Positions 1,976 to 34,117 of a stretch of 64,000 nucleotides of DNA are shown in pieces. The first letter of the stretch is position 1. Each line of letters begins with the position of its first letter. The translations under genes and the position numbers were made by a program. The notes below the pieces were generated by a model that worked only from the letters and a program-made list of their open reading frames with translations, was not told where the DNA came from and did no database searches. Source of the stretch: Paenibacillus alvei DSM 29 (GTDB taxonomy: Bacteria > Bacillota > Bacilli > Paenibacillales > Paenibacillaceae); NCBI RefSeq assembly GCF_000293805.1, contig NZ_AMBZ01000009.1, forward strand, positions 186,001 through 250,000, written 5' to 3'.

Positions 1976-2779
1976 ATGGATATCAAAACGTATACCCAAT
2001 CAAACCGTGAAGCTTGGAATGAAGTGAATCCGATCCATCAGGTACATAACCCCGTGAACTTGAAAGAAGCGTTTTTGCAAGAAGGATATTCCACTTTGGA
2101 CCCCCTAATTACTGAACTGCTTCAAGATCTGGGTCTCCGAGAGAAAAATGTGGCGCAGCTTTGCTGCAATAATGGCAGAGAAGTGTTGTCACTGGTGAAT
2201 CTTGGGGCGCAAAGCGGAACTGGCTTCGATATTTCGGATCACGCCATTCAGGAGGCAAAGGATCTGGCGGATATATCCGGCTTGCCATGCTCATTTGTCC
2301 GCACTGATGTATACGATGTTGATCTGACCGAGCATGCTGGTAAATATGATCTGATCTACATATCGATCGGCGCGCTCCCCTGGCTTCCTGACCTGGGCAA
2401 ATTTTTCAATCTCGCGGCCAATATGCTGGCGAAGGACGGTCAACTCGTCATTTATGAAATGCACCCGTTGTTAAACATGCTTCCCTTAGAAGGCGAGCCT
2501 GAATTTGAAGATCCTTTGAAAATTGCCTTTTCCTATTTTAAAACCGATCCATGGGTTTCCACGAGCGGAATTGACTATGTAGGAAAGACAACCTACGAGG
2601 CAAAAACGAATTACAGCTTCAGTCATACGTTGGCATCCATTTTCAACGCCATTATTCAAAGCGGCATCAATATTACGGAATATAAGGAATATCAGCATGA
2701 TATTTCTAATATTTACGCTCATGTAGAGAAAGAACAGAAGCTCCCGATGAGCTTCACGTTAGTCGGCCAAAAGAGGTAG
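1976..2779 (+). CDS. Class I SAM-dependent methyltransferase
   Basis: A 267-residue protein. ATG 1976 is chosen because TAGGAG at 1961-1966 sits nine bases upstream; a TTG at 1967 is too close to that site. The SAM-binding region is visible around residues 55-110: VAQLCCNNGREVLSL (motif I, with Cys residues in place of the usual Gly-rich turn), then GTGFDISDHAIQEAKDLA with the acidic ribose-binding Asp, and a later TDVYDVD. KYDLIYISIGALPWLPDL corresponds to motif IV. Homologues act on small molecules, but the substrate is unknown. The gene converges on the biosynthetic operon and has its own promoter, so a tailoring role in that pathway is possible but not shown. Confidence 0.85.
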   Translation: MDIKTYTQSNREAWNEVNPIHQVHNPVNLKEAFLQEGYSTLDPLITELLQDLGLREKNVAQLCCNNGREVLSLVNLGAQSGTGFDISDHAIQEAKDLADISGLPCSFVRTDVYDVDLTEHAGKYDLIYISIGALPWLPDLGKFFNLAANMLAKDGQLVIYEMHPLLNMLPLEGEPEFEDPLKIAFSYFKTDPWVSTSGIDYVGKTTYEAKTNYSFSHTLASIFNAIIQSGINITEYKEYQHDISNIYAHVEKEQKLPMSFTLVGQKR

Positions 2780-2809
2780 ATTCCACCTAATGGATCGTGA
2801 CGAGCAGTA

Positions 2810-2845
2810 GGAGGTACGGTTTTTTCTTTCATGCGCCGTACCTCC
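2810..2845. terminator. Stem-loop between convergent genes
   Basis: GGAGGTACGG at 2810-2819 pairs perfectly with 2836-2845. It lies between the converging ends of the methyltransferase (plus) and the peptidase (minus). The T-run lies in the loop rather than after the stem, so it is an atypical bidirectional terminator at best. Confidence 0.4.
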
Positions 2846-2893
2846 GATTTGCACCTGGTTTGCCTTCCCTTCCCCAACCTTTCTCTAGCCTGC

Positions 2894-4453
2894 TTAATCC
2901 TGCATCGTTTCCGTGATGATAGAATCGTCCCTTCTGAAAGTGACAAGCAAGAATGCGTACAGCAGATACAGCACCCCAGGCACCATGCTGCCGTACGCAG
3001 CCCATGCCAGCGAAGCCGGTGACCAAACGTTAACAAATTCCCAGGGCAATCCACGGGTTAATTGGTGAAGCAGCAAGATGTAGGATGTACCAAGAATGAC
3101 GACAAATAGCCCGTGCATACCTAATAAGAAACCTTGCCTCCGATTGTATGGAACTCGTCTTCTTTGCTTATTCCGAATATCAATCAGCCCTTTGCCCGTC
3201 AGAATGAGCAGGACAAGTGACAATCCCCCCCATAGTCCCGTAATCCACATCGCTACCTGATCGACGAAAAGAAATCCATTGGTGCTGCGATCTGCCAGCT
3301 CGGCATGCTTGCCTGACCAGATATCCATGATTGCCCGCCCCATATGTGCGCCTTGTTCGCTGTTCGTATTCATAAGCAAGGCAATGCCCGTCCGTGCGGC
3401 GGGATACAGCGCTACAAATGAGGAAAAAGCAGGATTATTTCCGGCATGGGATATTTCTTGTTTATCTCTATATACGCTCCAGCCGCTTGCATAATAAGAG
3501 CCGTCCCTATCCGGCGCCACGGTTCGATCCGGTTCATGTGAAGCTGTTATCAAGGAAGGCCCTATGCCTCCTAATGTTATATCCTGCAGTTGAAATAGCA
3601 TCCATCTCGCCATATCCCGGGCACTGCTCACGATATAGCCTGCTGGGGTATTTCCGCGATATATTGGAGGCTGATAGTTGCGCTGCCTGCCAAAAAAGAC
3701 CTTGTGCCCCGCAGCCATATCCTGCGCATAAACGGGCACTGTGGCGGCCACCGTCGAGGTCATGCCCAAAGGCTCAAATACGGACTGTCTCATAAATTGT
3801 TCATAGGGCATTCCACTTGCTTTTTCGATGATAAATCCAAGCACGTCATAATTGATTGTCGCATATTCGAAGCTGCTTCCGGGCAATCGTGCCAGTGGTT
3901 GATCGACGAGTGCGCGTACAGTCTGTTCCATGGCAGTTTCTGCTTCGCTTGCCGGGATACGGCCGATGGATTCAAACGGAATTCCGCTTGTATGGTGAAG
4001 AAGCTGATGCAGCGTAATGATTACCGGTTTCCCGTTATAGGTCATCCGCAGCCAAGGTATATAGCTAGTGACAGGATCGCTTTGCCTCAATAGCCCCTTT
4101 TCCTCCAATAGATGCACGGCCAATCCTGTAAAAGCCTTGCTTGTCGATCCCAGTTCGAACAGCGTCCTGCTCGTGACGGGCTTTTGTGCCCCAAGATCCG
4201 CATATCCGAAGCCTTCTTCCAGAACGATCTTCCCTTTATGAACCATAGCCAGGGATAATCCGGGAATTTTGCTGGCAAGCATCTGAGCGTGCACATATTG
4301 CTTTATGGCTGCAAGCCGCTGTTCTTGAGCATGCTCATCCCCTGCTTGAGCTGCGGGATCGACGTGTGAGGGCATAAGAAGCAGCAACGATACGAATGAA
4401 ATGATAACGGTAGTCATCAATTGCTTTCCCCGCCGTTTCCAAGAACTGCTCAT
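2894..4453 (-). CDS. Membrane-anchored S12 serine peptidase, ClbP-like prodrug activator
   Basis: A 519-residue protein from ATG 4453, chosen for the AAGGGGG site just upstream and because a signal/anchor segment (TTVIISFVSLLLLM) follows at once. A longer frame back to a TTG at 4543 overlaps the NRPS stop but crosses a terminator. The class C beta-lactamase fold is shown by GSTSK (nucleophile Ser about 103, Lys about 106), YATINY (Tyr about 197) and SHAGNN (HxG motif). Three C-terminal membrane helices follow, in the last ~130 residues. This design (export signal, S12 domain, three helices) matches ClbP and relatives such as ZmaM and XcnG, which remove an N-acyl-D-asparagine cap on the outer face of the membrane. 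The same operon has a module predicted to make acyl-D-Asn, which supports that role. The third residue of the usual YxN motif is Thr here. Confidence 0.85.
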   Translation of the reverse strand: MSSSWKRRGKQLMTTVIISFVSLLLLMPSHVDPAAQAGDEHAQEQRLAAIKQYVHAQMLASKIPGLSLAMVHKGKIVLEEGFGYADLGAQKPVTSRTLFELGSTSKAFTGLAVHLLEEKGLLRQSDPVTSYIPWLRMTYNGKPVIITLHQLLHHTSGIPFESIGRIPASEAETAMEQTVRALVDQPLARLPGSSFEYATINYDVLGFIIEKASGMPYEQFMRQSVFEPLGMTSTVAATVPVYAQDMAAGHKVFFGRQRNYQPPIYRGNTPAGYIVSSARDMARWMLFQLQDITLGGIGPSLITASHEPDRTVAPDRDGSYYASGWSVYRDKQEISHAGNNPAFSSFVALYPAARTGIALLMNTNSEQGAHMGRAIMDIWSGKHAELADRSTNGFLFVDQVAMWITGLWGGLSLVLLILTGKGLIDIRNKQRRRVPYNRRQGFLLGMHGLFVVILGTSYILLLHQLTRGLPWEFVNVWSPASLAWAAYGSMVPGVLYLLYAFLLVTFRRDDSIITETMQD

Positions 4454-4486
4454 CGATATCCCCCTTGAATTCAAATCGTTTCGATC

Positions 4487-4520
4487 AAAAGCAGCAGATG
4501 ATTGCTCATCTGCTGCTTTT
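4487..4520 (-). terminator. Intrinsic terminator after the last NRPS gene
   Basis: A perfect 15-bp stem (4487-4501 with 4506-4520) has a four-base loop and ends in TTTT on the minus strand. It follows the NRPS stop (4540) and precedes the peptidase ATG (4453), so peptidase expression may depend on read-through or on a promoter of its own. Confidence 0.75.
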
Positions 4521-4539
4521 ATGACTATGTCCAGGTGAT

Positions 4540-7500
4540 TCAATTTGGTGAATCACTCCGCTTTGCTTCTACGATTCGGCTCAAATCACGAATCGTCATT
4601 GCATCGTAAAGCTCCCGAAGCGTGAATTTAACGCTGAAAACTTTACTAATTCGCGTAATGACTTGCGTTGCCAGCAGTGAATGTCCGCCCAGGTCGAAGA
4701 AATTATCTGTTACGCCGATTCTTTCAAGCTGGAGGATTTCTTTCCATATGCCGCAGATGACTTGCTCTGTATCCGTCTCGGGGAGGATGATTTCACGCTG
4801 TGTGAATGGACTGACGTCCAATTCGGCCAGTGCCTTCTTGTCCAGCTTCCCGCTCGGCGTAGTTGGCATGAACGGCACGAAGATAACTTGATCCGGCACC
4901 ATATAGTCTGGCAGGGAGTGTTTTAAGTGGGTTCGCAAGGCATTTGCGCTTATATAGTCCCAGCTATCCGCCGCAGAACCCGCGTCGCAAGGGTGCTCCA
5001 TCCACACGCTCGGCTCGATATATTCTCCGATTCCCTTTTCAAGATCGATATGAACGGGCTGAAGCGTCCCTTTCACCTGATATTGTCCGCTCTTTTCGAA
5101 CGTTCTGCCCGTCCATTTTTCCCAATCCGAGATGCTGCCCCTGATAGACTGAGATTGAACTGCAATTCCAATCATGCGTGCGCCAGTCCGTTCATGCGTA
5201 CGCAGCCAATTGTCCTGAAGGTGCCCGTCTTCCCGTCTGAGCGTGCAGTAGTCGGAAAAGCTTAGCTCCGGAAAATCAGATTTTCCTGTCGGACGTACCG
5301 GGACGATAACCCGTTCCATCTTATGTCCATGTGCCAGATGCTTGAAAGCGCCAAGCAGTACGGAGGCCAATCCGCGCCCCTGGTACCTCTCATTTACGAC
5401 TCCGGCAAGAATGAGCAGCGTATTAGGCTCTTTCTTGGCTGCACTATCTTCGAAAGCTTGGATAAGCCCTGAATCCCACCCTTGGGGAAGCCCGCTGTCG
5501 GTCTTGTCCCAGCAGATCGGAATGGTGTTGCCGACTGCTGCTACCTCACCTTTGGAATCTGTCAGGGCGAATTGGTATTCCGGAAATTTAACGAATACTT
5601 CGGGCCACAGGGCTTGGAATACCTGATCTCCTTCAAAAAATTCGGGCCATGCCGCTAAATGAACGGCATCCATTTTTGGCTTCAGAGAAGGGATCTGTGC
5701 AAGGGTGTGCAATTTCAGACGTTCATTATTTACGATGAATGGCTGCAGGGCATCACTTAGCTCGACATATGCGACCAATCCATCCATCCTCTCGTTTTGC
5801 ACATGAAGGACGGCGCATTTGCCCACACTCTCGTGAGCCACCAAACGACTTTCAACCTCTTCAACCTCCACGCGGTTCCCGCGAACCTTGACTTGGTAAT
5901 CGACCCGACCGATATACAACAAATTTCCGTCTTCTGTATATTTGGCCAAATCCCCAGTACGATACAACCGTGATTCGGGATCACGGGAGAACGGATTGGG
6001 AATAAAACGTTTGGACGTTTCCTCGTAATCGGCAAGATAGCCTCTGGCGAGCGCAGGAGAAGCAATATACAGCTCTCCAGGCACCCCGATTGGCACCAAT
6101 TGATGATGCTCATCCAATAAGTAGACGCGGTGATTACTGATCGGGCGGCCGATCGGAACTTGATTCCCCTCTGCCCCCCGCTCGCATATATAGGTGACGG
6201 AATCCACACTCGTTTCGGTAGGACCGTAATGATTGCTCAGGCTGCTTGCAAAACATTCGAAAAACTTGTCCCGGATCTCCTTTATAAGCGCTGCTCCACC
6301 GCACACGACGTGGCGCAGGCTTGGAAGTTCCGGAAAATCGCCACGCTTGCGGGCGTCTACGAAAGCTTCCAGCATAATCGGAACCATCTGCAGTACAGAA
6401 ACCCCGTGCCGGGCAGCCAATTGACCGATTTGTCCCGGATTTTTGCGTTCCTCCTTGCCGGCAACTACAATCCGTGCTCCATAAGCAAGCGGCCAAAAAA
6501 TCTCCGGTATGGAAGAGTCAAACGTATAGGTCGTTATCAGCAGTGTTGAATCGCGGTCTGTCAACGGGTAGGTTCGCTGCGTCCACTCAAGCAAATTGAC
6601 GAGGCCGCGATGCTCAATTTCAATGCCTTTCGGCAATCCGGTCGAGCCTGATGTAAACATTACATAGGCCAAATTTCTAGAATCAAGAGACAGTTGCAGG
6701 TCAGCAGGAGATTCCTTTTCCAACTCGGAAGCCTCTTCATCTAGGAGCATCCATTGTTGGAAAGGAAGCTGTTTATCTTGTGCAAGCCGCCCTTCCGAAA
6801 TGATGATGGACATCCCTGTCCGGTCGGCAATCCACTGCCGGCGCGAATCGGGAAGATCGGGATTCAGCGGAATATAAGCTCCTCCCGACTTTAAAACCGC
6901 AAGGAGCGCGATAATCATGTCCTCAGACGGATCGAGCAATATCCCCACCTTATTTTCTGGCCGCACTCCTTTTCTGATTAACGCGCGCGCCAATTGGTTT
7001 GATCTGGAATTCAATTCTTGGTAGCTAAGCGTCCGGTCTGCAAATGTCACAGCCGCATGATTGGGCGTTCGGCGAGCCTGCGCTTCAAACAAACGGTGAA
7101 CACAGGTTGCATCGTTATAAGGGTGGTCTGTCCGATTCCATTCCTCAAGCAGCGTGATTTTGTCCTTTGCAGTCACAAGCTCAAATGTCTCCAGCGGCTT
7201 CGATGGTTCGCTTAGCACTTGCTCCGTCAGCAAGAAGAACTGCTCGACCAAACGCTGGGCAGTCGTTCTCTTGAAGAGATCCGTATTATAATTCAGATTG
7301 ATTTCAATACCGGATTCCAGTTCGTCGAAAACATAAGTAAGATCGAAGCGTGCGCTAATCTCTTCGAAATCAAATGGCTGCACCTTGTAAGACAAGCCTT
7401 CAAAACTCAGTTGACTCAACATTTCTCTTTTATTGTTTTGCAAACCGTACATGATGGAAAACATCTTGGTGCGCGACAAATCCGTATCCGGACGCAGTTC

Positions 7501-8679
7501 CTCAATGATAAAATTGCTTGGATATAAATGGTTGTCATAGGCTTCGATCGACGTTTTCTTCACCTGCGCGGCAAGCTGCTCGAAGCTCATTCCCTCTCTG
7601 ATGCGGCAACGGAGCAGCATCGCTTTGGCAAATAGGCCGAGCACATGCTCGATCCGGACATCGTCACGATTGGCAATCGGCGAGCCTACAATAAAGTCCT
7701 TTTGGTTGCTTAGCCTGTACAACTGTAAATTTAACACCGTTAACAAGAACATGTTCAAGGTAAGGCCTTGTTCCTGGCAATACCGATAAACCCGGCTTTC
7801 CAATTCGGAATCGAACCGTCCCAAAATAGTGCCGCCCCGGAACGTCATCTGCGGCGGGCGCGGGAAATCGGTTGGCAGTTGCAATCCGCTAGGAGGATCG
7901 GCAAGCTCCTTCAGCCAATATTGCCGATGCTCTTCCAGCTTGCCGGTTCGCACAGCCTCGTTGATCCATTGCATATAGTCAGTGTACTCTACTTCCAAAT
8001 CCGCCAGTTTCGGCGATCGGCCCATCATTTCGGCATTATACAGTTCATTCAATTCTTTAAAAAGCTGAATGGACGAAGTCTCGTCCCAAATGATGTGATG
8101 TGTGGCAAACAAGAAAAAGTAACGATTCCCTTTGAATTCGACGAGTCGAATGCTGAAAAGAGGCCCCGTTTCGAATGAAAATACTTGATTTGCATGTTCT
8201 TGGGAAAGCTGCCTAACGGTCGCCTCCACATGGTGTTCGGGAATGTGCGTATAATTCTCGCACAATAAGTGAAAAGGAAAATCCGCCACCGGTGTAATAT
8301 ATTGAAACGGAATTCCGGAATTTTCATCAATCCTGAAATATGCCCGCAATACGGAATGACGCTCAATAAGCATTCTCCATGCCCGCTCAAATGCATCTAG
8401 CTGCAAGTGGCCCTCGAACATAATGTCAAAGCTGACATTGTAATAAGGATTGTCTGGTTCCAAAACGTGAAAATACCATTCGGGCAATTGAACCGGCGCA
8501 AGTTCGTAGGCATGCTGAGGCGGCCTTTTCAAAATTGGAGACAATTCGCTGATGTTCGACTTCCCTTGTCGCGCTACCTGCTCATCCAAGAAAGCCGCCA
8601 GATCCTTGAGAACAGGCGTCAAAAAGATTTGTTGCAACGCAATTTGGATACGTAGCCGATCACGAATCCGGTTGACCAC
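4540..8679 (-). CDS. NRPS, second part: (PCP end)-C-A with inserted GNAT-PCP
   Basis: The C-terminal 1379 codons of what should be one NRPS with the upstream frame at 8619-11849; the two join by a one-base change at 8714-8718. Order: end of a PCP; C domain around residues 60-480 with HHIIWDE (Glu replaces the usual Gly of HHxxxDG); A domain from about 520, with FTSGSTGLPKG near 680 and NHYGPTET. Motif A8 (GRVDYQVKVRGNRVE) is at about 926. A GNAT-like domain fills residues about 1005-1225, then A9 (LPDYMVP, about 1257) and SGKLDK resume. A final PCP (LGGHSLLA, Ser about 1335) ends the protein. My reading of the pocket residues is D-S-P-Q-V-G-H-V-D-K, which I do not recognise. No thioesterase or reductase follows, so the release step is missing or supplied in trans. 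Confidence 0.9.
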   Translation of the reverse strand: MVNRIRDRLRIQIALQQIFLTPVLKDLAAFLDEQVARQGKSNISELSPILKRPPQHAYELAPVQLPEWYFHVLEPDNPYYNVSFDIMFEGHLQLDAFERAWRMLIERHSVLRAYFRIDENSGIPFQYITPVADFPFHLLCENYTHIPEHHVEATVRQLSQEHANQVFSFETGPLFSIRLVEFKGNRYFFLFATHHIIWDETSSIQLFKELNELYNAEMMGRSPKLADLEVEYTDYMQWINEAVRTGKLEEHRQYWLKELADPPSGLQLPTDFPRPPQMTFRGGTILGRFDSELESRVYRYCQEQGLTLNMFLLTVLNLQLYRLSNQKDFIVGSPIANRDDVRIEHVLGLFAKAMLLRCRIREGMSFEQLAAQVKKTSIEAYDNHLYPSNFIIEELRPDTDLSRTKMFSIMYGLQNNKREMLSQLSFEGLSYKVQPFDFEEISARFDLTYVFDELESGIEINLNYNTDLFKRTTAQRLVEQFFLLTEQVLSEPSKPLETFELVTAKDKITLLEEWNRTDHPYNDATCVHRLFEAQARRTPNHAAVTFADRTLSYQELNSRSNQLARALIRKGVRPENKVGILLDPSEDMIIALLAVLKSGGAYIPLNPDLPDSRRQWIADRTGMSIIISEGRLAQDKQLPFQQWMLLDEEASELEKESPADLQLSLDSRNLAYVMFTSGSTGLPKGIEIEHRGLVNLLEWTQRTYPLTDRDSTLLITTYTFDSSIPEIFWPLAYGARIVVAGKEERKNPGQIGQLAARHGVSVLQMVPIMLEAFVDARKRGDFPELPSLRHVVCGGAALIKEIRDKFFECFASSLSNHYGPTETSVDSVTYICERGAEGNQVPIGRPISNHRVYLLDEHHQLVPIGVPGELYIASPALARGYLADYEETSKRFIPNPFSRDPESRLYRTGDLAKYTEDGNLLYIGRVDYQVKVRGNRVEVEEVESRLVAHESVGKCAVLHVQNERMDGLVAYVELSDALQPFIVNNERLKLHTLAQIPSLKPKMDAVHLAAWPEFFEGDQVFQALWPEVFVKFPEYQFALTDSKGEVAAVGNTIPICWDKTDSGLPQGWDSGLIQAFEDSAAKKEPNTLLILAGVVNERYQGRGLASVLLGAFKHLAHGHKMERVIVPVRPTGKSDFPELSFSDYCTLRREDGHLQDNWLRTHERTGARMIGIAVQSQSIRGSISDWEKWTGRTFEKSGQYQVKGTLQPVHIDLEKGIGEYIEPSVWMEHPCDAGSAADSWDYISANALRTHLKHSLPDYMVPDQVIFVPFMPTTPSGKLDKKALAELDVSPFTQREIILPETDTEQVICGIWKEILQLERIGVTDNFFDLGGHSLLATQVITRISKVFSVKFTLRELYDAMTIRDLSRIVEAKRSDSPN
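5000..5665 (-). other. GNAT acyltransferase domain embedded in an adenylation domain
   Basis: About 220 residues lie between motifs A8 and A9 of the last A domain. They contain GVVNERYQGRGLASVLLGAF, the acetyl-CoA pyrophosphate-binding motif of GNAT enzymes. Other stretches (FPEYQFALTD, VIVPVRPTGKSDFPE, DNWLRTHERTGARM, YIEPSVWMEH) match a family of free-standing GNAT proteins I know from actinomycetes and other bacteria. Reading frame and codon use run smoothly through the segment. A domains interrupted at this site normally carry a methyltransferase; I do not recall a characterised GNAT at this place. Confidence 0.85.
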
Positions 8680-11600
8680 CTTGACTGCGCTGATAGAATG
8701 TCCGCCAACGAGGAAAAATTATCGTCAGGCGCGATTTGGGTTGCTTCAAGCGACTCTTTCCAAATGTCGATCAAGGCGGATTCCATCATAGTCTGCGGCT
8801 TGGAAGCAAATACTACGGGCTCGTTTTCTTTTAGCGTATCCCGCAGTTTCCTTAGTGCATGCCTGTCGATCTTCTCGCTGGCAAGCAGCGGCATGCCCGG
8901 AATGCAAGTAAGATGGGCCGGTACCATATAGTAAGGAAGCTGCTGGTGTAGGTGGTTCCTGAGCGAGTCCGGCTCCAGACCATTTCGGCTTGTATAAAAG
9001 GCAGCCAGCGCTTGGCCCCCGTCGGATTCTGGGATGACGATCACCGCGACCTCGTCTACTTCCGGATGCTTGCCGATGCAGCCCTCGATTTCGCCCAATT
9101 CGATTCGGAACCCGCGGATTTTAACTTGAAAGTCTATTCTGCTGAAAAATTCGAGCTCGCCCTCCGGCAGCCAACGGCCCAGATCCCCCGTGCGGTAAAT
9201 GCGGGCCTCCGGATCGTCGCTGAACGGATCAGGGATGAATTTTTCTCCCGTCAGTTCGTCGTTCTTCCAATATCCGCCGCCGACGCCAATCCCGCCGATC
9301 CAAATTTCGCCCTTCATGCCCACGGGAGCAAGCTTATGGTACTTATCCATAACATACAACTGCATATTAGGAAGAGGTCGACCGATCGGAATACGAATCT
9401 GATGTTCGGTTACAGGTCCCTCCAGCACTTTTTGAGTCACGTCGTCCGAGCACTCAGTCGGTCCGTATGCATTAATGAGCTTGATTTCCGGAAAATGAGA
9501 AAACCAAGAATTTACGAGCTTAACGGGCAATTCTTCGCCATTTGCAATCATCCAACGCAAATTCGGCAATTGACGTTCTTCCTTGGACACGAGCCCAACC
9601 GTGTCAATAAACGCAAATAACATGGACGGAACCGTTTCTATAATCGTAGCGCCGCTTTTTTTCAAATGCGCTAACAACAGCGTTTGATCTCTGGATGTCT
9701 CAAAGGAAACGAGTGAGGTTTGGGCCCCTGCCATAAGCGCCGTCATGGCTTGCCAGATAGATACATCGAAGCTCACGGATGCATTTTGAATGATGACATC
9801 CTCATGCGTAACGCCAAGCGTCGTGATCTTCGCATATAAATGATTGATCATTCCATTATGTCTAACAAGTGCGCCTTTGGGGTTGCCAGTCGAGCCTGAC
9901 GTGTAGATCATGTATGCGATATCGGATGCTGCATTGACATGCTGCGGATTGTCGGAAGGCATAAGGTCGGCATCTGCTTTATGAAGAATCTGGAAATCGG
10001 CATCATCGCAGGAATCGAGCTGATCCAGGCAGACAATCGTGCGCACAGAGCGAGAGGACATTCTCCTAGCGCGCTGAAGCAGCGCTCTCTGCGTGATGAC
10101 AATACCAGCTTCGCTATGCTCCAAAATATAAGACAGCCGTTCATCGGGCAAATTCGGGTCGACCGGCACATAGGCGGCGCCGCTTTTCCATATTGCGATC
10201 AATGCCGCGACCCATTCCAGGTTGCGCTCGCTCATGACGGCGACGAATTGATTGCGGTTCGCCCGCTGCTTTCTTAATAGATGCGCTAACCTGTTGGCGC
10301 GTTCATTTAATTCCCGATAGGAGACGTCAACGCCTTCAAATGAAAGCGCGATTTGATCCGGCGTGTCCTCTACTTGCTTTTCGAATAAACTTTGAACCGG
10401 CTCGTGGGTCGGAAAGTCCAGCTTCCAATGATTGAATTTTTCCATGACCTGCTTTTTTTCCTCATCGACGAGCATGTCCAGATCGGCGATCCGGATGTTA
10501 GGAGTCTCTAGTGCATGCTGCAAGAGCTGAATAAAATGAAGACTGAGCCTTTGCATCGTATCTGGGCGGAACAAATCCGAGTTGTATTGGATATAACCGT
10601 CAATATAGCCGTCTTTCTGGTACAGCTCGAATACGAAATCGAAGCCGGTAAAGCGGATGTAGTCTAAAGATTTATGGTAAGCAAGTGTCATATCATTGCC
10701 TAAATCTACGCTGCTTGCGGCATCCGTTTTTAAGGTGTGAACCTCGAACAACACATCGAATATCGGGTTGCGGCTAAGGCTTCGTTCCACCCCAAGATCC
10801 TCAACAATTTTGTCGAACGGGTATTCCTGATTTTCATGCAACTCAGACACAGTCTGCTTCATTCTCAGAACAAAATCCTGAAACAACTCGTCTCCCTCTA
10901 CCTGATTGCGCACGGGCAGCGTATTCACGAAGCAGCCGATAACGGGCAAGACGTCCGGATGAACGCGACCGGACAGGGATGTTCCGATAATAATGTCTTC
11001 ATTTCTCGTATACTTGGCGAGCAGTACATTGAATACGGCAAGCAAATACATATAATGGCTGACGTCGAGACTTTCGCATGTCTGCTTGAGCCGTTCCATC
11101 CATTCACCATCAATAATGACGGGGACAGTGCTTCCGTTGAAGGATTGCAGGGCCGGACGAGGGAAATCGAGCGGAAAGTTCAGATCAGCTCGTTCTCCCG
11201 CCAGCTTGTCCGACCAAAATCGTTTCATGCCGTCCAGCTCTCCTTCGGCAAGACGGTGATTGTGCCAATGGGCAAAATCCGCATATTGCACATCCAGAGG
11301 CTCCAGAGGCGACGGCTGGCCATTCAAGAAAGCTGCATAGTTGGCCATGAGCTCAGACATGAACACATCCACAGCCCATCCGTCGGAAATAATATGATGT
11401 GCCGCAATCAAGCATAAATGTTCATTTTCGGCCAATCTATACAGATATACCCTTACTAAAGGGGGTTGCTTCAAATCGAACGCCTGGTTCAACGCAGAAT
11501 CAATTCGCTGATTCAATGCCTGGGATTGCGTTTCCTCCGGCAAACGGCTCAAATCTTCATGCTGAACCTCGAATGGCAATTTCTCATGAACAAGTTGAAC

Positions 11601-11849
11601 CGGATTCCCGTCCTCCTCCATAAAGCAGGTGCGCAGCGTATCGTGCCGGTCGACTATGACTTGAACCGCTTGCTTGAATAGAGCTTCATTCAATGCACCC
11701 TGGAGTGTAAACGCGGTTGAAACATGAGTCATGGCATGAACGGAAGCCTCCTGAACAAACTCAAGCTGTTCCGTAAACCAGAACCGCTTTTGCGCATGAG
11801 ACAATTCGTATTTGTGGATGGCCGCTTCCGCCTCCAAATTCATTTTCAC
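8619..11849 (-). CDS. NRPS, first part: C-A-PCP (broken in the PCP)
   Basis: 1076 codons from a GTG at 11849 (ATG two codons later). A C domain covers residues 10-440 with an intact HHIISDG near 153. The A domain follows, with YTSGSTGNPKGALV near 653 and NAYGPTECSDD. The PCP begins at about 1020. The frame then leaves the PCP at DDNFSS; reading one extra base at 8714-8718 restores DDNFFLVGGHSISAVKVV and joins the frame at 4540-8679. The last ~35 residues of this frame are therefore out-of-frame sequence. Pocket residues read as D-V-W-E-I-N-A-D-D-K; three acidic positions suggest a basic or diamino acid, perhaps the 2,3-diaminobutyrate made by upstream genes (inference). The gene follows the KS-KR-ACP gene by 58 bases in the same operon. 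Confidence 0.9.
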   Translation of the reverse strand: MKMNLEAEAAIHKYELSHAQKRFWFTEQLEFVQEASVHAMTHVSTAFTLQGALNEALFKQAVQVIVDRHDTLRTCFMEEDGNPVQLVHEKLPFEVQHEDLSRLPEETQSQALNQRIDSALNQAFDLKQPPLVRVYLYRLAENEHLCLIAAHHIISDGWAVDVFMSELMANYAAFLNGQPSPLEPLDVQYADFAHWHNHRLAEGELDGMKRFWSDKLAGERADLNFPLDFPRPALQSFNGSTVPVIIDGEWMERLKQTCESLDVSHYMYLLAVFNVLLAKYTRNEDIIIGTSLSGRVHPDVLPVIGCFVNTLPVRNQVEGDELFQDFVLRMKQTVSELHENQEYPFDKIVEDLGVERSLSRNPIFDVLFEVHTLKTDAASSVDLGNDMTLAYHKSLDYIRFTGFDFVFELYQKDGYIDGYIQYNSDLFRPDTMQRLSLHFIQLLQHALETPNIRIADLDMLVDEEKKQVMEKFNHWKLDFPTHEPVQSLFEKQVEDTPDQIALSFEGVDVSYRELNERANRLAHLLRKQRANRNQFVAVMSERNLEWVAALIAIWKSGAAYVPVDPNLPDERLSYILEHSEAGIVITQRALLQRARRMSSRSVRTIVCLDQLDSCDDADFQILHKADADLMPSDNPQHVNAASDIAYMIYTSGSTGNPKGALVRHNGMINHLYAKITTLGVTHEDVIIQNASVSFDVSIWQAMTALMAGAQTSLVSFETSRDQTLLLAHLKKSGATIIETVPSMLFAFIDTVGLVSKEERQLPNLRWMIANGEELPVKLVNSWFSHFPEIKLINAYGPTECSDDVTQKVLEGPVTEHQIRIPIGRPLPNMQLYVMDKYHKLAPVGMKGEIWIGGIGVGGGYWKNDELTGEKFIPDPFSDDPEARIYRTGDLGRWLPEGELEFFSRIDFQVKIRGFRIELGEIEGCIGKHPEVDEVAVIVIPESDGGQALAAFYTSRNGLEPDSLRNHLHQQLPYYMVPAHLTCIPGMPLLASEKIDRHALRKLRDTLKENEPVVFASKPQTMMESALIDIWKESLEATQIAPDDNFSSLADILSAQSRWSTGFVIGYVSKLRCNKSF
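8714..8718 (-). other. Frameshift site in NRPS PCP domain
   Basis: A run of five A (T on the coding strand). Six would join the two NRPS frames into one protein of about 2435 residues and recreate the GGHS phosphopantetheine site. It is either a sequencing error or an inactivating mutation. Confidence 0.75.
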
Positions 11850-11907: not shown

Positions 11908-14900
11908 CTACGACAATGTCTTTGCCTTCGGGATTGATTTCATTTTAGGCCTTGAATCATGTCCTTTGGCGGTCGATTCCAGATACTGACTCAATTTTCT
12001 TAACGTTTCATGCTCGAGCAGAACGGCAACGTTCAACTGAATGCCGGTTCTTTTGGAAAGCTCCAGCATGATTTCCATCCCGATCAGCGAGTTTCCACCC
12101 AGAGCATAAAAGCTGTCGTCCGGATCGATATGGTGAACGCCCAAACTCCGTTTCCATATTTCAGCCGTAGCTTGTTCAATGTCGGCAAGCTGCATTTCTT
12201 TCAGGTTCAACCCTTCGGTGCGTTCGGTTTGAACGAAATCAGATGCGCCAGGGACAACATCCGTAACTGAGGTCGAACGTGCTTGGTTCATCTTCGCCGC
12301 AATTTCGTCCGCGAATCGGAACGGCAGTATGCCATGCTGCATAAGATTTTCATTGCGATATTTACTGCGGTAGGCAATTGTCCCAACGAATGATTGGCGA
12401 ATTCCTTTGCGAATTATGGTGTCTAGCGCTTCGATGCCTTCAGCATTCGTCAGCTTTTCGAACAAATCGTCATCGGCGACCCCATGTTCATAGGACATTC
12501 CTGTCTCCGCCCAAGATACCCAATTGATAGTTTGCGTGCGCTTTCCTTGGCGATTGCGATAGGCTTGGAAAGCATCGAGATAAGCGTTGGCCGCCGTATA
12601 ATCGCCTTCACCAAGGCCGCCAGTCAATGTCGTTGCGGACGAATAGAGGATGAAGAAATCCAGTTGGTCATGATGCGTGCATTTATCCAATATCCATGTC
12701 CCCTGAATTTTGGGTCGAACGACCTCGCGAAACTTGGCTTCCTGGCGGTTCAAAAGAAATCCCGATCCCCCTACGGCGGCTCCGTGAACAATGCCTCTGA
12801 TGCTGCCGTGCTTGGTACGTAGAGCGGCGAAAAGCTCCTGCATGGCTTCATAATCGGCTACATCCGCGCTATAGGGATGAACCTTTGCTCCGAGCTGCTC
12901 GATCTCCATAATCGCTGCGATTTTTCGTGCCGTACTTGTCTGGTTCGCATCAGTCAATATTGAAGGCCACATGGAACGATCCGGCAAAGGGGTCCGATTC
13001 AACAAAGCGAGATTGACCGGTGATTTAGCCGCGAAATATTTCGCCGTCTCCAGTCCGATGCCGCCCATCCCCCCCGTAATGACGTAGATGCCGTCAGTAT
13101 GCAACTGCAGCGGAACATCCGGCTCTTCCTCAAACAAAAGCGGAGCGAATTGCTCCGTATAACGCTCTCCGCCCCTAAATGCGACATGATACGAATCGGA
13201 CGATACGTCCAGTTCCTGAAGGATTGTGGCCAGTGGAGTTTCATCATCCCAATCCACGGCGCGGCATTTGAGCTGCGGATTTTCAAGTCCGACAACCTTG
13301 CCCAGCCCGAACAGCGCGGCATGCTCCGGATGAATCTGCGGTTCAAGCTGATTTACTTCTTGCGCATATCGTGCGGTCAAAATAAGCTCAATAGGCTGGG
13401 ATCGCTGCAGCATTGCCAGGGATTTGACACAAGAAAAAAGACTGTACAAGCCTGCATGGAGCGTGTTCTCCAATTCCGCGAGTGAACGGGGATGGTGGTC
13501 GCAGTCCAAGCCGCCCATATGGACGATTTTTGTAAGACGCTCCGCCTTCACGCTTTTGAGCACGAACCGGTAACCTTCTTCCGAGCCGTCGGTAACGTAA
13601 CGGTAATCGTTCAGCTTCATGTTATGGATATCCGGTACAATCTCGACTTCAATGACGCGTCTCCCTTTCGAACGCCATTTTTTCACCAGCTTTGCCCCGA
13701 AACCCGACTTGTCCATAATTGCAAGCACCGTACCCATATCTGATTTGTTCGCTGCTGTAGGAAGCTGTTCCCGGATCCATTTGAGAGAATGAAATTTCTG
13801 CTCTTGCGGAAGAACGGGCAAATTCAGCCAGCATGAGCATGCTTCAAATGGATAGGTAGGCAAATTCCGCTTATTCACGTGAAATGGATAAAAGGCTTCC
13901 CATATCACCTCGCTACCCTTCACGAACAGCTCCGCCAGCTCAGAAAGCTCACGATCCGCCGGATAGATGCTATCCTTCACATCAGCCTCTGCCGCCATGC
14001 CAAAATAATGGCCATACTCCGGGCGATGAGTCAGACCGTGTGCCTCGATTGCCCCCAACCTTAACTGTAAATCGCTTATGCTGGAACACCGTACGGCCAG
14101 CCGCCATGGATGGTGGATTCTTCCCGTATTGGCGGTGTAGCATATCTCCGTCAGCGGAATGGGCGCATGTTCGTGCAAAAATGCAGTATAACGTTTAACG
14201 AGATGAAGCAGCGCTTCGCGCGTTTTGGCCGACAAAAGCAGCAATTCTTCTCTTTCGGGATAGCTTGTCGATCCTGGTTCGGGAGCTTCTTGTAACACGA
14301 TGTGGCAGTTTGTTCCGCTCATGCCGAACGAGCTCACCCCGCATCGACGAGGCGTTGCGTCTCGTGGCCAGGGCTTTACGCGGTCATTGACGTACACAGG
14401 AGAGCGGATAAAGTCAATTCGTGCATTCGGTTTGTCGAAATGGAGATTTGGAGGCAGTTCCTTGTGCTTAAGAGCCAGCACCGCTTTTATAACCCCGGCA
14501 ATCCCCGCTGCGTGATCGAGATGGCCGATATTCGATTTGATTGATCCCAATGCGCAAAACTGATTTTTATCGGTATATCGGCGAAAAGCGCGCTGTATCG
14601 CATCGACTTCTATCGGGTCGCCCAGCTCCGTCCCGGAACCGTGTCCTTCCAGATAACCGATGCTTTGCGGCTCAATGCCTGCGTCTCTCCAGGCTTGAAT
14701 AAGAACATCTTCCTGCGACAATACATTCGGCGACGTTATGCCAATGGAGCTTCCGTCTTGATTAACGGCGCTTCCCTTGATTATGGCGTAAATCGCGTCC
14801 CCGTCCCTGACAGCCTGAGGCAGCGGCTTCAAAATAAGCGCTGCCACCCCCTCACCCGGACCGGTTCCATCGGAATAGTCATCGAATGATCGGGTTCGTC

Positions 14901-15651
14901 CGTCCGATGATTCGATGCCGATTCTTTGCGAGGTATCCAGCGGCAAAATATAGGTTTTCACCGAACCGGCAATCGCCATGTCGCATTCCCCAGCGCGCAG
15001 GGATTGGCAAGCCTGATGTATGGCAACGAGCGATGAAGAGCACGCCGTATCAATCAGCATGCTTGGCCCCTTCAAATCCAGTAAATAAGAGATTCGGCTA
15101 GCGATAATCGAACGGATATTTCCGGCCAGCGCCACGCTCATTGCATCGGGCTCCAACAGTTGCAACATCCGCGAATACTCCCCGTCATCTCCGTAACCGA
15201 CATATATGCCCGTACGGCTTCCGGCCAGTTTTCTGCCGTCGTATCCCGCATCTTCAATAGCGGAGAATACAGTCTGCAGAAACAGCCTTTGGTTCGGATC
15301 CATCAGGCTTGCCTCGCGGGGGGACAGATTAAAAAAACGGTAATCGAACGAATCGATATTGTCGAGACAGGCGCCTTTGTAGAATTTCGCCTGATAGTCC
15401 GTTCCATATGCGACCGCCGCATAGCGTTTCGCTTGCTTTTGTCTACTTGCGGAAGGCAGCCTGACACTATCCACCTTGTCCCTGATGTTCTGCCAGAACG
15501 CATCCGGATTGTTGGCTTGCGGCATTTGCAGAGACATCCCGATAATGGCCACATCTCTTGAAGATGGAGCTTCATAATGCTCGGCATGCGAAGACATGTT
15601 ATCGCGTTTCAGCAATGTAACTTTGTCGAACCCCAGCTTTTTCTTTACCAT
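11908..15651 (-). CDS. AT-less PKS module KS-KR-ACP
   Basis: 1247 residues from ATG 15651 behind AAAGGAAG. The KS spans residues 30-460 with DTACSSSLVAIH (Cys about 204), EGHGSGTELGDP and SNIGHLDHAAG, so the Cys-His-His triad is present. After the KS only linker remains and then the usual post-AT NLPTYPFEA, so the AT has been lost. The KR has GGMGGIGLETA near 863 and the Ser/Tyr/Asn active-site region YSSATTLTGGLGEGDYTAAN. The ACP has GGNSLIG near 1184. The module needs an acyltransferase in trans; the free-standing AT two genes upstream of the small unknown gene is the obvious partner. With hydroxymalonyl-ACP as extender the product would carry an alpha,beta-diol (inference). It lies between the two amino-acid-adding NRPS proteins in operon order. 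Confidence 0.92.
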   Translation of the reverse strand: MVKKKLGFDKVTLLKRDNMSSHAEHYEAPSSRDVAIIGMSLQMPQANNPDAFWQNIRDKVDSVRLPSASRQKQAKRYAAVAYGTDYQAKFYKGACLDNIDSFDYRFFNLSPREASLMDPNQRLFLQTVFSAIEDAGYDGRKLAGSRTGIYVGYGDDGEYSRMLQLLEPDAMSVALAGNIRSIIASRISYLLDLKGPSMLIDTACSSSLVAIHQACQSLRAGECDMAIAGSVKTYILPLDTSQRIGIESSDGRTRSFDDYSDGTGPGEGVAALILKPLPQAVRDGDAIYAIIKGSAVNQDGSSIGITSPNVLSQEDVLIQAWRDAGIEPQSIGYLEGHGSGTELGDPIEVDAIQRAFRRYTDKNQFCALGSIKSNIGHLDHAAGIAGVIKAVLALKHKELPPNLHFDKPNARIDFIRSPVYVNDRVKPWPRDATPRRCGVSSFGMSGTNCHIVLQEAPEPGSTSYPEREELLLLSAKTREALLHLVKRYTAFLHEHAPIPLTEICYTANTGRIHHPWRLAVRCSSISDLQLRLGAIEAHGLTHRPEYGHYFGMAAEADVKDSIYPADRELSELAELFVKGSEVIWEAFYPFHVNKRNLPTYPFEACSCWLNLPVLPQEQKFHSLKWIREQLPTAANKSDMGTVLAIMDKSGFGAKLVKKWRSKGRRVIEVEIVPDIHNMKLNDYRYVTDGSEEGYRFVLKSVKAERLTKIVHMGGLDCDHHPRSLAELENTLHAGLYSLFSCVKSLAMLQRSQPIELILTARYAQEVNQLEPQIHPEHAALFGLGKVVGLENPQLKCRAVDWDDETPLATILQELDVSSDSYHVAFRGGERYTEQFAPLLFEEEPDVPLQLHTDGIYVITGGMGGIGLETAKYFAAKSPVNLALLNRTPLPDRSMWPSILTDANQTSTARKIAAIMEIEQLGAKVHPYSADVADYEAMQELFAALRTKHGSIRGIVHGAAVGGSGFLLNRQEAKFREVVRPKIQGTWILDKCTHHDQLDFFILYSSATTLTGGLGEGDYTAANAYLDAFQAYRNRQGKRTQTINWVSWAETGMSYEHGVADDDLFEKLTNAEGIEALDTIIRKGIRQSFVGTIAYRSKYRNENLMQHGILPFRFADEIAAKMNQARSTSVTDVVPGASDFVQTERTEGLNLKEMQLADIEQATAEIWKRSLGVHHIDPDDSFYALGGNSLIGMEIMLELSKRTGIQLNVAVLLEHETLRKLSQYLESTAKGHDSRPKMKSIPKAKTLS

Positions 15652-17518: not shown

Positions 17519-19561
17519 TTATCCTCCCTTGATAGTTTTGGAGCGCTTCGTCAAAGGCATGCGCTCGAACGGATATGTCGGCAGCGGCAAATGCCGGCAT
17601 CCTTTCCGGTAAAAGGCGTCCACACAAAAGTCAACCCCGTTCAGCCATAGCTGTCCAATAGTTCGGAGCAGGAAGAGGCGATCGGAAGCGTGCTCGTAAG
17701 CATACCGCATGGTCGGAATAGTCTGAAGCCGCTCGCCATCTGCAGCAGACGGATGCTGGCGCACAAAGCTGCATAGTGATTGCCCCGGTCCGATCTCCAC
17801 GAAAATCGCATCCCCGTCGTGAATAACTTCGTTTATTCCGTCGCTGAAGCGCACAGTTCGGCACAGATGGTCTGCCCAGTATCCGGGGTCTGTTGCTTGT
17901 TCTGCCGTTATCCATGTCCCCGTTACGTTCGACAAAAAGGGAATGGACGGAGGCTTCGGTTCATGCTCGAAGATCAGTGCCGACAGTGCAGAGGCGGCAG
18001 GCTCCATCATCGGCGAGTGAAAGGCACGATCGGACGGAATGCGGACAGATACTTCACCCATACGGGCAAGACGCCGCTCCAGCTCGCCGATGCCTTCCGC
18101 GGTGCCGGAAATGACCAGTGACCCTGGGCTGTTCATCAATGCGATTGTCGTGCCTTCCGGCAGCAGCGGCGAGACCTCGCTTGCTGTCATCGAGACGGCG
18201 AGCATCGCTCCCTTCTCCAGCCCATTGATGAGTTGGGAGCGCTTGGCGACGATGGTCAGCGCTTGCTCTAACGTAAATACCCCTGCAATGCAGGCCGCAG
18301 TATACTCTCCTAGACTGTGGCCGATCAAGACGTGCGGCTTGATGCCCCAGGATTCCAGAAGGCGTGCCAGCGCGTACTCGACTGTAAACAAAGCTGGATG
18401 CGCCCACGACGTCGACTCCCGTTGCTCGCCCGCAGTTCCTGGCGAGTCTCGGCGAAGGATGCGCCGAATGTCCAGTTCCGGCACCGTGCTAAGCTGTTCT
18501 CCTCCGCCTGAGTGTTTGGCCGAACGCACCGGATAAAGCTTTTCGCGCAGATCGAATCCCAGGAGAGGCTGCAAAAATTTACAGCAGCCATCGACCGTAT
18601 CGCGAAAGATCGGTTCCTGCTCATAGATGTCGCGTCCCATGTTCTCATAATGATCTCCAAGACCTGAAAACATGAAAACGAGCTTGCGAGTACTTGCATC
18701 GCATGAACTGTCCCAATATCGGCACGCATCCCGGTTCTGCAAAATCTCGACGGCCTCACGAATGCCGGAGGACACCAGAATGCGGCGCTCAGGGAGTGAT
18801 GCCGCCATGTTATGCAGACTGTAGGCGACATCTCCCAGATTTGCATCAACGTGTTGATTGAGATAGCCGACAAGTTGATCCGTTGAGACCTCCAGTGCCG
18901 AACTTGTTCCCGCCGCTAGCATGAGCAGTTCTCCGGCACGTGGTTGCGCGGGCATTACGGTTTCGAGTTCATTCAAGGACGGCTGCCCGTCCGTCTCTAT
19001 GCGGACATGCTCGCCATCCACACAAAGGACGGCCGTAATGGATAACAGCTTCCGCTCCGCAATATTCCATGGACTTATGACAAAAGTCCCCACGCCCTTG
19101 CTCCCTAAAGTCGCACACAGTACAACATCGTTCAGGTTGCCGTTCAGACGGACACGGATATCCAGCAACATGTTCGGCAAACTGTTCCCGTGAATGATCG
19201 TAATCGGTAGTGAGGATAGAGCGGCCGTTAATCGAGCTGCGGTCCGCTGTTGAATGAGCTTGCTATCGGCGTAGATCCAAATTCTTCTGCCGAAACCTCG
19301 TGTGCATCCAGCAGTCTGCAGAGCCGTCCACGATGCTTCCAAAAAATCGAGTTCGGCCGAATGCATCTCTGCCGCTTCTTGAATGGTCATTTGAAAAAAG
19401 CGGGCATCGAATCGATCTTTTTCTTCGATTGCTGTACCTTCTTCCATCGATATGGGGGATGAATTCCACCAATCACGAAAATCACGGGCGTCCTTCAAGA
19501 AGCCACCCACTCCCGTTACTGCCAGCTTCATTTCTTCCAAGGCTACATTCACGCTTTTCAT
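17519..19561 (-). CDS. Trans-acting acyltransferase with a decayed KS-like N-terminus
   Basis: 680 residues from ATG 19561 (AAAGGAGG upstream). Residues 1-230 resemble a shrunken ketosynthase (KLAVTGVGGFLKDARDFRDWW, then FFQMTIQEAAEMHSAELDFL) without the active Cys. The AT domain follows: FMFSGLGDHYENMG, the nucleophile in GHSLGEYTAACIAG (Ser about 417), and RAFHSPMME with the AFH signature of malonyl-type rather than methylmalonyl-type ATs. It ends in LPLPTYPFERMPL, the usual post-AT tail. The protein looks like a KS-AT pair that lost KS function and now acts in trans. It is the only intact AT in the window, so it likely feeds the AT-less PKS module from the adjacent ACP. Confidence 0.88.
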   Translation of the reverse strand: MKSVNVALEEMKLAVTGVGGFLKDARDFRDWWNSSPISMEEGTAIEEKDRFDARFFQMTIQEAAEMHSAELDFLEASWTALQTAGCTRGFGRRIWIYADSKLIQQRTAARLTAALSSLPITIIHGNSLPNMLLDIRVRLNGNLNDVVLCATLGSKGVGTFVISPWNIAERKLLSITAVLCVDGEHVRIETDGQPSLNELETVMPAQPRAGELLMLAAGTSSALEVSTDQLVGYLNQHVDANLGDVAYSLHNMAASLPERRILVSSGIREAVEILQNRDACRYWDSSCDASTRKLVFMFSGLGDHYENMGRDIYEQEPIFRDTVDGCCKFLQPLLGFDLREKLYPVRSAKHSGGGEQLSTVPELDIRRILRRDSPGTAGEQRESTSWAHPALFTVEYALARLLESWGIKPHVLIGHSLGEYTAACIAGVFTLEQALTIVAKRSQLINGLEKGAMLAVSMTASEVSPLLPEGTTIALMNSPGSLVISGTAEGIGELERRLARMGEVSVRIPSDRAFHSPMMEPAASALSALIFEHEPKPPSIPFLSNVTGTWITAEQATDPGYWADHLCRTVRFSDGINEVIHDGDAIFVEIGPGQSLCSFVRQHPSAADGERLQTIPTMRYAYEHASDRLFLLRTIGQLWLNGVDFCVDAFYRKGCRHLPLPTYPFERMPLTKRSKTIKGG

Positions 19562-19598
19562 TCGCAAGCCTCCTTTCGTCCCATTCCAAGCAAGAGAT

Positions 19599-33082: not shown

Positions 33083-34103
33083 ATGCTCCTTTCGACTGGG
33101 TATAAGACCAGGAATGAACCACGCACTGCTCCGAAACCTGTAAAGGCTCATCGGGAAGCCTTAGTTGGTGAATTCCCTTCTCAAGCCGATACCGTTCGCT
33201 ATAAATGGTATCGACGTAACGATCGCCTCGATCCGGAAATAGAGCGACGATTTTCGTCTCCGGATTGACTCGAGTACTGATCCACCGCGCAACGGCATAT
33301 ACTGAACCGGAGCTGTTGCCGGCAAATATTTTCTCGCGTTCCGCCAGTTGCAATGTGGCCGCAAACGATTCTTCGTCATTTAACCAATGAACCTCGTCGA
33401 CAATGCTATGGTTCACATTTGCCGCTACAAGACTGTTGCCTAATCCGCTTTGCAATCGGTCTTTGCGATCCGGTTGACCGAAAATAACGCTGCCGGTCGC
33501 GTCAACTGCAACGACGCGCATGTTGGGATTATGTCTGCGCAATTCCGCAGCCGTACCCGACATGGAGCCGCCACTGCCGACGGAAGCAACCAGAATATCC
33601 ACATGACCAAGATCTGCCACCAACTCTTCGGCAAGCTCCTTATAGGCGCGAGGGTTGTCGGGATTATCGTATTGACGCGGCCAATATGCGTCAGGGTATT
33701 GGTTTAGCAGTTCTTGCAGCTTCTCCAGACGTGCCCCCTGCCATCCGTTTTCGTTCATCTTATCTACGATGTATACGCGGCATCCTAATGATGTAAGCTT
33801 GGCCATCGTAATCGGGTCGATTCTTGGGTCGGTTACGATATGTACGGGATGGCCCAAATGCGTACCTACAAGCGCAATGCCGCAAGCCATAGTGCCGGAG
33901 GAACTCTCCACGATCGGAGCGCCGTCTTTGAGCTGCCCCGCTTTTTTTGCTTCTAGGATAATTTGTTTGGCTACGCGATCTTTCATGCCGAAGGGATTCA
34001 TAAGCTCCAATTTCGCGTACACATTACCTCTGCACTGCTCATCGAGCCTAAGCTTGACGAGCGGTACGCGTCCCACCGCGTCTACCATGCTTTCATGCAG
34101 CAT
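33066..34103 (-). CDS. PLP-dependent beta-replacement enzyme, cysteine-synthase-like
   Basis: 345 residues from 34103. The PLP lysine lies in NPFGMKDRVAKQ near residue 42. The phosphate-binding loops ESSSGTMACGIAL and ASVGSGGSMSGTA are present. It is a fold-type II synthase of the cysteine synthase/SbnA group. The immediate neighbours, a threonine-kinase-like gene 15 bases upstream and an argininosuccinate-lyase-like gene before it, suggest that it replaces the phosphate of O-phosphothreonine with an amino-acid nitrogen (for example aspartate). The lyase would then cleave the adduct to give 2,3-diaminobutyrate. A similar trio (DabA/B/C type) is, as I recall, known from friulimicin-class clusters. 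The exact substrate is inferred from context. Confidence 0.88.
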   Translation of the reverse strand: MLHESMVDAVGRVPLVKLRLDEQCRGNVYAKLELMNPFGMKDRVAKQIILEAKKAGQLKDGAPIVESSSGTMACGIALVGTHLGHPVHIVTDPRIDPITMAKLTSLGCRVYIVDKMNENGWQGARLEKLQELLNQYPDAYWPRQYDNPDNPRAYKELAEELVADLGHVDILVASVGSGGSMSGTAAELRRHNPNMRVVAVDATGSVIFGQPDRKDRLQSGLGNSLVAANVNHSIVDEVHWLNDEESFAATLQLAEREKIFAGNSSGSVYAVARWISTRVNPETKIVALFPDRGDRYVDTIYSERYRLEKGIHQLRLPDEPLQVSEQCVVHSWSYTQSKGAYAGVR

Positions 34104-34117
34104 CTCGCGTCCCTCCT

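Follow-up and report, generated by a model that had tools for sequence, protein, structure and literature searches.

A GNAT-fold domain within the adenylation domain of a nonribosomal peptide synthetase module from Paenibacillus alvei DSM 29

Analysis of a 64,000-nucleotide stretch of the Paenibacillus alvei DSM 29 genome (contig NZ_AMBZ01000009.1, positions 186,001 to 250,000; hereafter, the window) identified a nonribosomal peptide synthetase (NRPS) module in which a domain of GNAT fold breaks the adenylation (A) domain within its small subdomain (Asub), at the a8-a9 site where such interruptions usually occur. Interrupted A domains are a known kind of enzyme; the GNAT type of insert is new within the literature searched. 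The module is encoded by an open reading frame (ORF) at 4540-8679 on the minus strand (1379 amino acids, P0001) and is ordered as a condensation (C) domain, A motifs A1-A8, the GNAT insert, A motifs A9-A10 and a carrier (T) domain.

Architecture of the interrupted module

Pfam matches to P0001 cover Condensation (residues 55-510), AMP-binding (531-882) and PP-binding (1306-1368), with AMP-binding_C represented by its second half only (profile positions 42-76, residues 1244-1278). Approximately 250 extra residues (981-1232) lie between A8 (925-938) and A9 (1256-1262), and in the translation the A10 and carrier motifs follow downstream of the insert with no change of frame. On the minus strand, the C domain (7150-8517, from the Pfam match) reads HHIIWDE in place of HHxxxDG, and the A1-A8 part, delimited by Pfam, motifs and code reading, spans 5866-7089 with specificity residues DSPQVGHVDK (here and below, the ten-residue codes follow GrsA numbering, with the final K appended by script). 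The insert occupies 4984-5739 by profile, model and fold comparison; beyond it, motif reading places A9 (LPDYMVP) at 4894-4914 and A10 (TTPSGKLD) at 4840-4863, the catalytic Lys of the latter being kept in 7 of 7 aligned sequences, and the PP-binding match places the T domain at 4576-4764. Judged from sequence, the A and T motifs of the interrupted module are intact, as is the rule for interruptions of the a8-a9 type.

A structure model of the A-GNAT-A-T segment (pLDDT 81.6, pTM 0.57) has an A core that matches solved A domains at 1.6-1.9 Å and an A-to-T part that matches LgrA (5es8) over 570 residues at 4.5 Å. The insert takes a GNAT fold in the model and by fold comparison, which excludes the absence of such a fold. 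One open frame, the motifs and the fold model therefore agree with the original prediction, which had proposed an A domain broken by a GNAT insert between A8 and A9; A1-A8 are all read in P0001 before the insert, and A9 and A10 after it.

In known a8-a9 interrupted A domains (KtzH, TioS, McyA, PchF, ColG), as here, a whole catalytic domain lies between A8 and A9 and the A and T motifs are kept, whereas the inserts named for them in the papers searched are methyltransferases, monooxygenases, oxidases and reductases. Two reviews (PMC11355689, PMC8949500) list inserts of methyltransferase, oxidase, monooxygenase, reductase or ketoreductase type, and a recombination study names methyltransferase inserts (PMC8097286); the available portions of all three use the words “GNAT” and “acetyltransferase” zero times, in line with the earlier statement that known inserts are methyltransferases and a few oxidases or reductases, with no acetyltransferase. 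In the accessible text of the fusadapamide study (PMC12751119), the inserts of interrupted A domains are N-methyltransferases and the acetyltransferase is a separate gene. A literature search returned no recognisable report of a GNAT-interrupted A domain, the kind of precedent that would speak against the prediction, among the matches listed, and no paper in the library searched contained “GNAT” as well as “interrupted A domain”. Because a single polypeptide both activates a residue and modifies it, such A domains serve in engineering, but few reactions are known to be available. With a GNAT-fold insert, acyl transfer or decarboxylation would join this repertoire.

Distribution and stereotyped setting

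Searching for other GNAT-carrying A domains, as had been suggested with the prediction, yielded eight more loci beside the window. The nine distinct embedded loci fall in Bacillota and Pseudomonadota: on the Bacillota side they are the window, Paenibacillus sp. SC116 and NAIST15-1 (which share their genus with the window genome), G271 (a genome of the same family), Polycladospora coralii and an Alkaliphilus metagenome-assembled genome (MAG), and the others are Pseudomonas fontis, Trinickia dabaoshanensis and Burkholderia glumae plasmid p81s2p. As each of the nine has one frame, an assembly artefact is ruled out. Within the genus, 3 of 19 genomes carry an embedded GNAT, the window genome counted. 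In the family, 41 of 394 genomes match at E ≤1e-3, comprising four embedded copies (in open frames of 1392-3574 amino acids), two free-standing copies that match strongly and, in the other 35, weak similarity to different GNATs. A phylum sample gave 3 of 398 genomes at E ≤1e-10: the window genome plus two in which the copy stands free, one of these with an internal stop. A scan of 84,980 species genomes with two short, narrow peptide patterns returned 58 stretches with 7 relatives, 6 of them embedded, and, because these patterns are narrow, the true number of embedded loci is probably higher than nine. Among plasmids, 38 records match, three of which, all from B. glumae, lie under an adenylation-domain protein. 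The nine natural examples provide ready constructs for engineering.

Embedded copies range down to 36-37% identity with the window domain. The free-standing family (Streptomyces, Rhizobium, Sinorhizobium, Proteus and others) is 24-35% identical to it across the ten copies compared; these are separate genes that carry the same motifs (VPVRP...WLRTH...EPNVW), which bears out the earlier recognition of a free-standing family with this pattern. On plasmids, such free-standing kin are mostly annotated as “hypothetical protein” or “N-acetyltransferase”, or have no gene call. On a Sinorhizobium medicae plasmid (locus L055, 14506-30574), a free-standing GNAT of this family adjoins an NRPS gene in which two C domains read HHLIGDH; the same stretch holds genes for a phosphopantetheinyl transferase, a SagB-like protein and a ParB-N-terminal-like protein, the last of a kind encoded near the B. 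glumae module too.

All nine embedded GNATs lie on one side of a branch with support of 98/100, recovered in 97% of 200 bootstrap trees, apart from their free-standing relatives. The nine interrupted A domains likewise group together (100/100), as do the preceding A domains (100/99), a group that includes a second A domain of G271. These trees are unrooted; in the GNAT tree the free-standing Miltoncostaea row has a very long branch, and the A-domain tree is built on fragments reaching to 330 residues past A3, 47 of 48 being kept (Win_57504 was left out), such that the interrupted ones include approximately the first 25 residues of the insert. Recent transfer of the insert into the window genome was considered and rejected, as the base composition of its blocks (0.49-0.54) falls inside the range seen elsewhere in the ORF (0.43-0.55) and the embedded copies form a single group in the tree. 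A phage or viral origin was also rejected: four pattern matches in viral_contigs left none confirmed, and phages gave no match. A Foldseek comparison of the insert with viral models returned weak matches only, many of them named acetyltransferases (best E 3.3e-5).

The module around the insert is equally stereotyped. Its C domain reads HHI(I/L)WDE and the interrupted A code reads D(A/S/V)(L/P)Q(I/V)(G/A)HVDK in 9/9 loci, with five identical codes. When up to four candidates were scored per genome, this special C domain (E ≤1e-72) occurred, among the 394 family genomes, in exactly the four that have an embedded GNAT. In each of the eight other loci, the module is preceded on the same strand by a polyketide synthase (PKS) ORF with homology to window 11908-15651. 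Its ketosynthase was seen directly, by Pfam or a ketosynthase pattern, in five of the nine upstream ORFs (window, SC116, Polycladospora, Alkaliphilus and B. glumae) and by homology in the remaining four. Between this ORF and the module, some loci hold SbnA/SbnB genes, a C-like ORF or an NRPS module. The fixed pair of modules offers a searchable signature for a peptide-polyketide product family.

An aminotransferase-class protein of about 475 amino acids (2613-4040 in locus L063; Pfam match on the Polycladospora copy only) has relatives of 62-66% identity in the NAIST15-1 (L007/L009) and Alkaliphilus (L067/L068) clusters. The B. glumae plasmid cluster encodes a protein with three stretches of ABC ATPase match (4305-5747 in locus L056). 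Proteins with repeated ABC ATPase domains often protect ribosomes, a hint that the product of this cluster may act on the ribosome.

The insert pocket and its possible reactions

Conservation was counted over 19 family members, nine embedded and ten free-standing. Against solved sequences, the profile of these 19 found CurA first (E 1.1e-8, runner-up 1.1e-3), and CurA was already best with an 8-member profile (E 2.9e-5). A match to PDB 5ig9, named “ATP grasp ligase”, was set aside as chance, since its E-values of 2.9e-4 and 2.3e-4 became 0.11 with the larger profile. Searches of Pfam, NCBIfam and PHROGs for a curated family to hold the insert gave weak matches only; Acetyltransf_1 is matched by 12 of the 19 members at E ≤0.01 (best 2.3e-7).

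By hidden Markov model (HMM) alignment, the catalytic His389 and the Arg387 of CurA correspond to His1162 and Arg1160 of P0001, both in WLRTH (5194-5208, minus strand), and CurA Thr355 corresponds to Val1128 of the PVRP motif (VIVPVRP, 5290-5310, minus strand); the roles of the three CurA residues are described in PMC3701320. The insert thus shares with CurA, one of the PKS-loading GNAT-like decarboxylases (CurA GNATL, GphF, SxtA) compared here together with malonyl-CoA decarboxylase, the catalytic His and, two positions ahead of it, the Arg. The His1162-type residue is present in 9/9 embedded and 9/10 free-standing copies (18/19 in total), and the Trp and Arg of WxR, as well as both Pro and the Arg of PVRP, are invariant (19/19). 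At the Thr355 position, no member has Thr or Ser (0/19): 17 have Val and two have Ala, with Val in all nine embedded copies and Val or Ala in the ten free-standing ones. With GNAT N-acetyltransferases (RimI, serotonin N-acetyltransferase, N-terminal acetyltransferases) the insert has the fold and the P-loop in common. In that pantetheine/coenzyme A (CoA) loop, (Q/R)xxGx(G/A), placed at QGRGLAS (5362-5382, minus strand) by motif and family conservation, the Gly is invariant (19/19) and the last position varies among Gly, Ala and Ser, with Ala in 4/9 and Ser in 5/9 embedded copies. QGRGLA of the window fits the pattern, and the acetyl-CoA-binding residues have accordingly not been lost in this copy.

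Conservation of these pocket residues argues that the domain is not decaying. As read from the alignments, the pocket is conserved and yet lacks both the acetyltransferase pair and a complete decarboxylase dyad; for this reason we file the insert under the GNAT fold only, with the CurA type as its closest solved kin.

Given that a free side-chain amine precedes the module in most loci, our first guess, which we hold at slightly less than even confidence, is that the insert carries out on-line N-acylation from an acyl-CoA. The carrier arm would deliver its cargo, either the residue just loaded or the newly formed dipeptide, to the GNAT site beside the A domain, as in methyltransferase-interrupted A domains, by analogy with which the arm presumably visits the inserted site. 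There, the GNAT would move an acyl group from CoA to a free amine, either the side-chain amine of the preceding diamino residue, once on this module's carrier, or an amine of the residue loaded by the interrupted A domain, giving an N-acylated unit in the chain, made on the assembly line. Beta-N-acetylated diaminopropionate (Dap) occurs in the fungal NRPS product fusadapamide, its source being not settled in the available text (PMC12751119), and the beta-acetylated Dap group is therefore known to occur.

Evidence for the diamino residue comes from the module that precedes the interrupted one. In the window it is a C-A ORF (8619-11849, minus strand; Pfam and code reading) with the Dap-like code DVWEINADDK, found in 7/9 loci; G271 has DIWELTADDK and the Alkaliphilus MAG has DIWQLISDTK. 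The closest solved chains to the preceding specificity region are PvdL and then sulfazecin A3. DVWEINADD equals DVWEMNADD of sulfazecin A3 (PDB 9n1u, Dap bound) at 8/9 readable positions, and DIWELTADD of G271 equals PvdL A3, which we take to load diaminobutyrate (Dab), at 9/9. At 8619-8679 of the window, this ORF and that of the interrupted module overlap in different frames, which splits the intervening carrier domain. One continuous frame covers this region in SC116 and NAIST15-1, and in SC116 it runs to 2460 amino acids together with the Dap-type module; the frame change in the window may stem from a sequencing error or reflect genuine damage.

In B. glumae, P. fontis, Trinickia, Polycladospora and G271, both SbnA and SbnB are encoded at most about 26 kb away from the module, the SbnB matches in Polycladospora and G271 (315.8 and 293.4 bits) being below the cut-off of 326.9 bits and the Polycladospora stretch containing one stop. 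NAIST15-1 has SbnA nearby and SbnB on another contig, and SC116 has both on another contig, with SbnB below the cut-off. In the window, an SbnA-like pyridoxal phosphate (PLP) enzyme (33066-34103, minus strand), scoring 275 bits on the family profile against a cut-off of 349.95, is a possible Dap source. It is adjacent, within 31820-36674, to an ATP-grasp ligase, a short GHMP-kinase-like ORF and an argininosuccinate-lyase-like protein, and these genes perhaps form an alternative Dap route. From codes and gene content, Dap as the preceding residue is well supported for most loci, not all. Together, the Dap/Dab-type codes and the Sbn genes imply that free amines would be at hand.

Several observations weigh against on-line N-acylation. 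In the GNAT roles set out in PMC3701320, a Glu on strand beta4 is the general base and a Tyr the general acid; none of the nine embedded copies has a Glu within beta4 (in 7/9 one follows directly after the strand), and His replaces Tyr at the general-acid position. The closest solved folds to the insert, CurA, SxtA and GphF, are GNAT-like decarboxylases, not acetyltransferases, and the window insert scores 18.4 bits against Pfam Acetyltransf_1, short of the curated cut-off of 20.7. The “acyltransferase” label first given to the insert thus stands as regards the fold, and falls short as regards its nearest solved relatives and the acid/base pair, a pair that not every GNAT needs. No gene examined points to an acyl donor. 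The interrupted A code is shared by no solved A domain in the five alignments compared. With respect to Dap, the window genome has no SbnB match, and the Alkaliphilus MAG has no SbnA above the cut-off, no SbnB match and a code that matches neither sulfazecin A3 nor PvdL A3.

Decarboxylation is the main rival. The insert would act as an on-line decarboxylase like CurA, GphF or SxtA, taking CO2 off a carrier-bound substrate, such as an aminomalonyl unit, whose carboxyl is beta to the thioester. Both its closest solved folds and its closest solved sequence (CurA) are decarboxylases, and the catalytic His389 of CurA is kept in all nine embedded copies. However, a common fold proves no function, and the Thr of the His-Thr/Ser dyad is replaced by Val or Ala throughout the family, a change that in CurA itself (T355V) drastically lowers decarboxylase activity (PMC3701320). 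CurA-type enzymes, which have Thr or Ser in the dyad, also act at the start of a PKS, whereas the insert, with Val, sits inside the A domain of a C-A-T module. Furthermore, no gene examined suggests an aminomalonyl-type substrate, and no solved A domain in the five alignments shares the code of this module. We therefore consider decarboxylation unlikely, although far from negligible.

The missing acid/base pair and incomplete dyad, as well as the Ser at the last P-loop position in 5/9 embedded copies, would also suit an insert that is a non-catalytic, structural or docking element of the A domain. This we regard as improbable, since the His, the PVRP Arg and the Trp and Arg of WxR are each kept in 9/9 embedded copies, as conserved as in the free-standing copies, and this conservation holds across copies down to 36-37% identity with the window domain.

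A further possibility is chain release or amide formation, in which the peptidyl-carrier thioester replaces acyl-CoA and the acceptor is a small amine or a diamino side chain. In the window, SC116 and the three proteobacterial loci, no further NRPS module follows the interrupted one within the stretch read, and a GxSxG pattern found no thioesterase-like site after the module in the ORFs of those loci. However, further same-strand NRPS ORFs lie downstream in Polycladospora, NAIST15-1 and the Alkaliphilus MAG, which speaks against release as a general role. In B. glumae, a separately encoded alpha/beta hydrolase close to the module could perform release instead. We judge release distinctly improbable.

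Self-protection, in which the fused GNAT would acetylate the finished antibiotic as the separate PamZ or EdeQ does, was offered in the original prediction beside tailoring. Paenilamicin is inactivated when the tandem GNAT PamZ N-acetylates it, and the organisms that make paenilamicin, amicoumacin, zwittermicin and edeine pair a prodrug with N-acetylation (PMC9054821); the window line also has a prodrug-type start and a Dap-type residue. Because both systems occur together in related producers, the presence of a prodrug system is no argument against this role and does not exclude it. Tailoring nevertheless fares better than self-protection, which is very improbable in view of the position inside the A domain: the Asub site is that of on-line tailoring domains, and an enzyme that confers resistance neither requires a carrier nor benefits from a single conserved place of insertion. 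We know of no resistance role assigned to the free-standing kin.

With regard to origin, the loci raise the question of how a GNAT related to PKS-starter decarboxylases came to lie in an elongation module, in all nine loci after a diamino-type clade and with a modified C domain. We tentatively propose, with confidence that remains clearly below even, that the GNAT derives from, or is sister to, CurA-type decarboxylases and has a retuned site (His kept, Thr to Val, PVRP Arg), with which it would perform a carrier-dependent reaction on the unit after Dap, unlike any NRPS module chemistry known to us, and that after a single origin it spread through Bacillota and Pseudomonadota in company with the diamino module and the special C domain.

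Other genes of the window

The remaining assembly line of the window resembles those of the paenilamicin/zwittermicin type: it opens with an Asn-code module that includes an epimerase-like domain, and it also has a membrane peptidase, PKS modules and a Dap-type residue. Paenilamicin contains N-methyl-Dap (PMC9054821). The starting NRPS (23373-29855, minus strand; code and pattern reading) has the A code DLTKIGEVGK, which we take to be an Asn code, and a C-like domain with HHLVIDGVSW, presumably an epimerase pattern. To our knowledge, no GNAT-interrupted A domain has been described in lines of this type. A beta-lactamase-family serine peptidase with hydrophobic C-terminal segments (2894-4543, minus strand; Pfam and translation) resembles prodrug peptidases, and the window line probably has a prodrug-type start and peptidase.

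The PKS ORF at 11908-15651 (minus strand; Pfam and homology) has ketosynthase, ketoreductase and acyl carrier protein domains. A further PKS ORF, at 17519-19636, has an acyltransferase domain and a Pfam match that covers only a short part of a ketosynthase; its SC116 homologue (L006/L008) is of similar length and 62% identical. At 55115-63999 lies a second NRPS/PKS set with several overlapping ORFs in different frames, which suggests frame errors or decay. A separate, ordinary GNAT gene adjoins a branched-chain polyamine synthase-like gene at 44045-45800.

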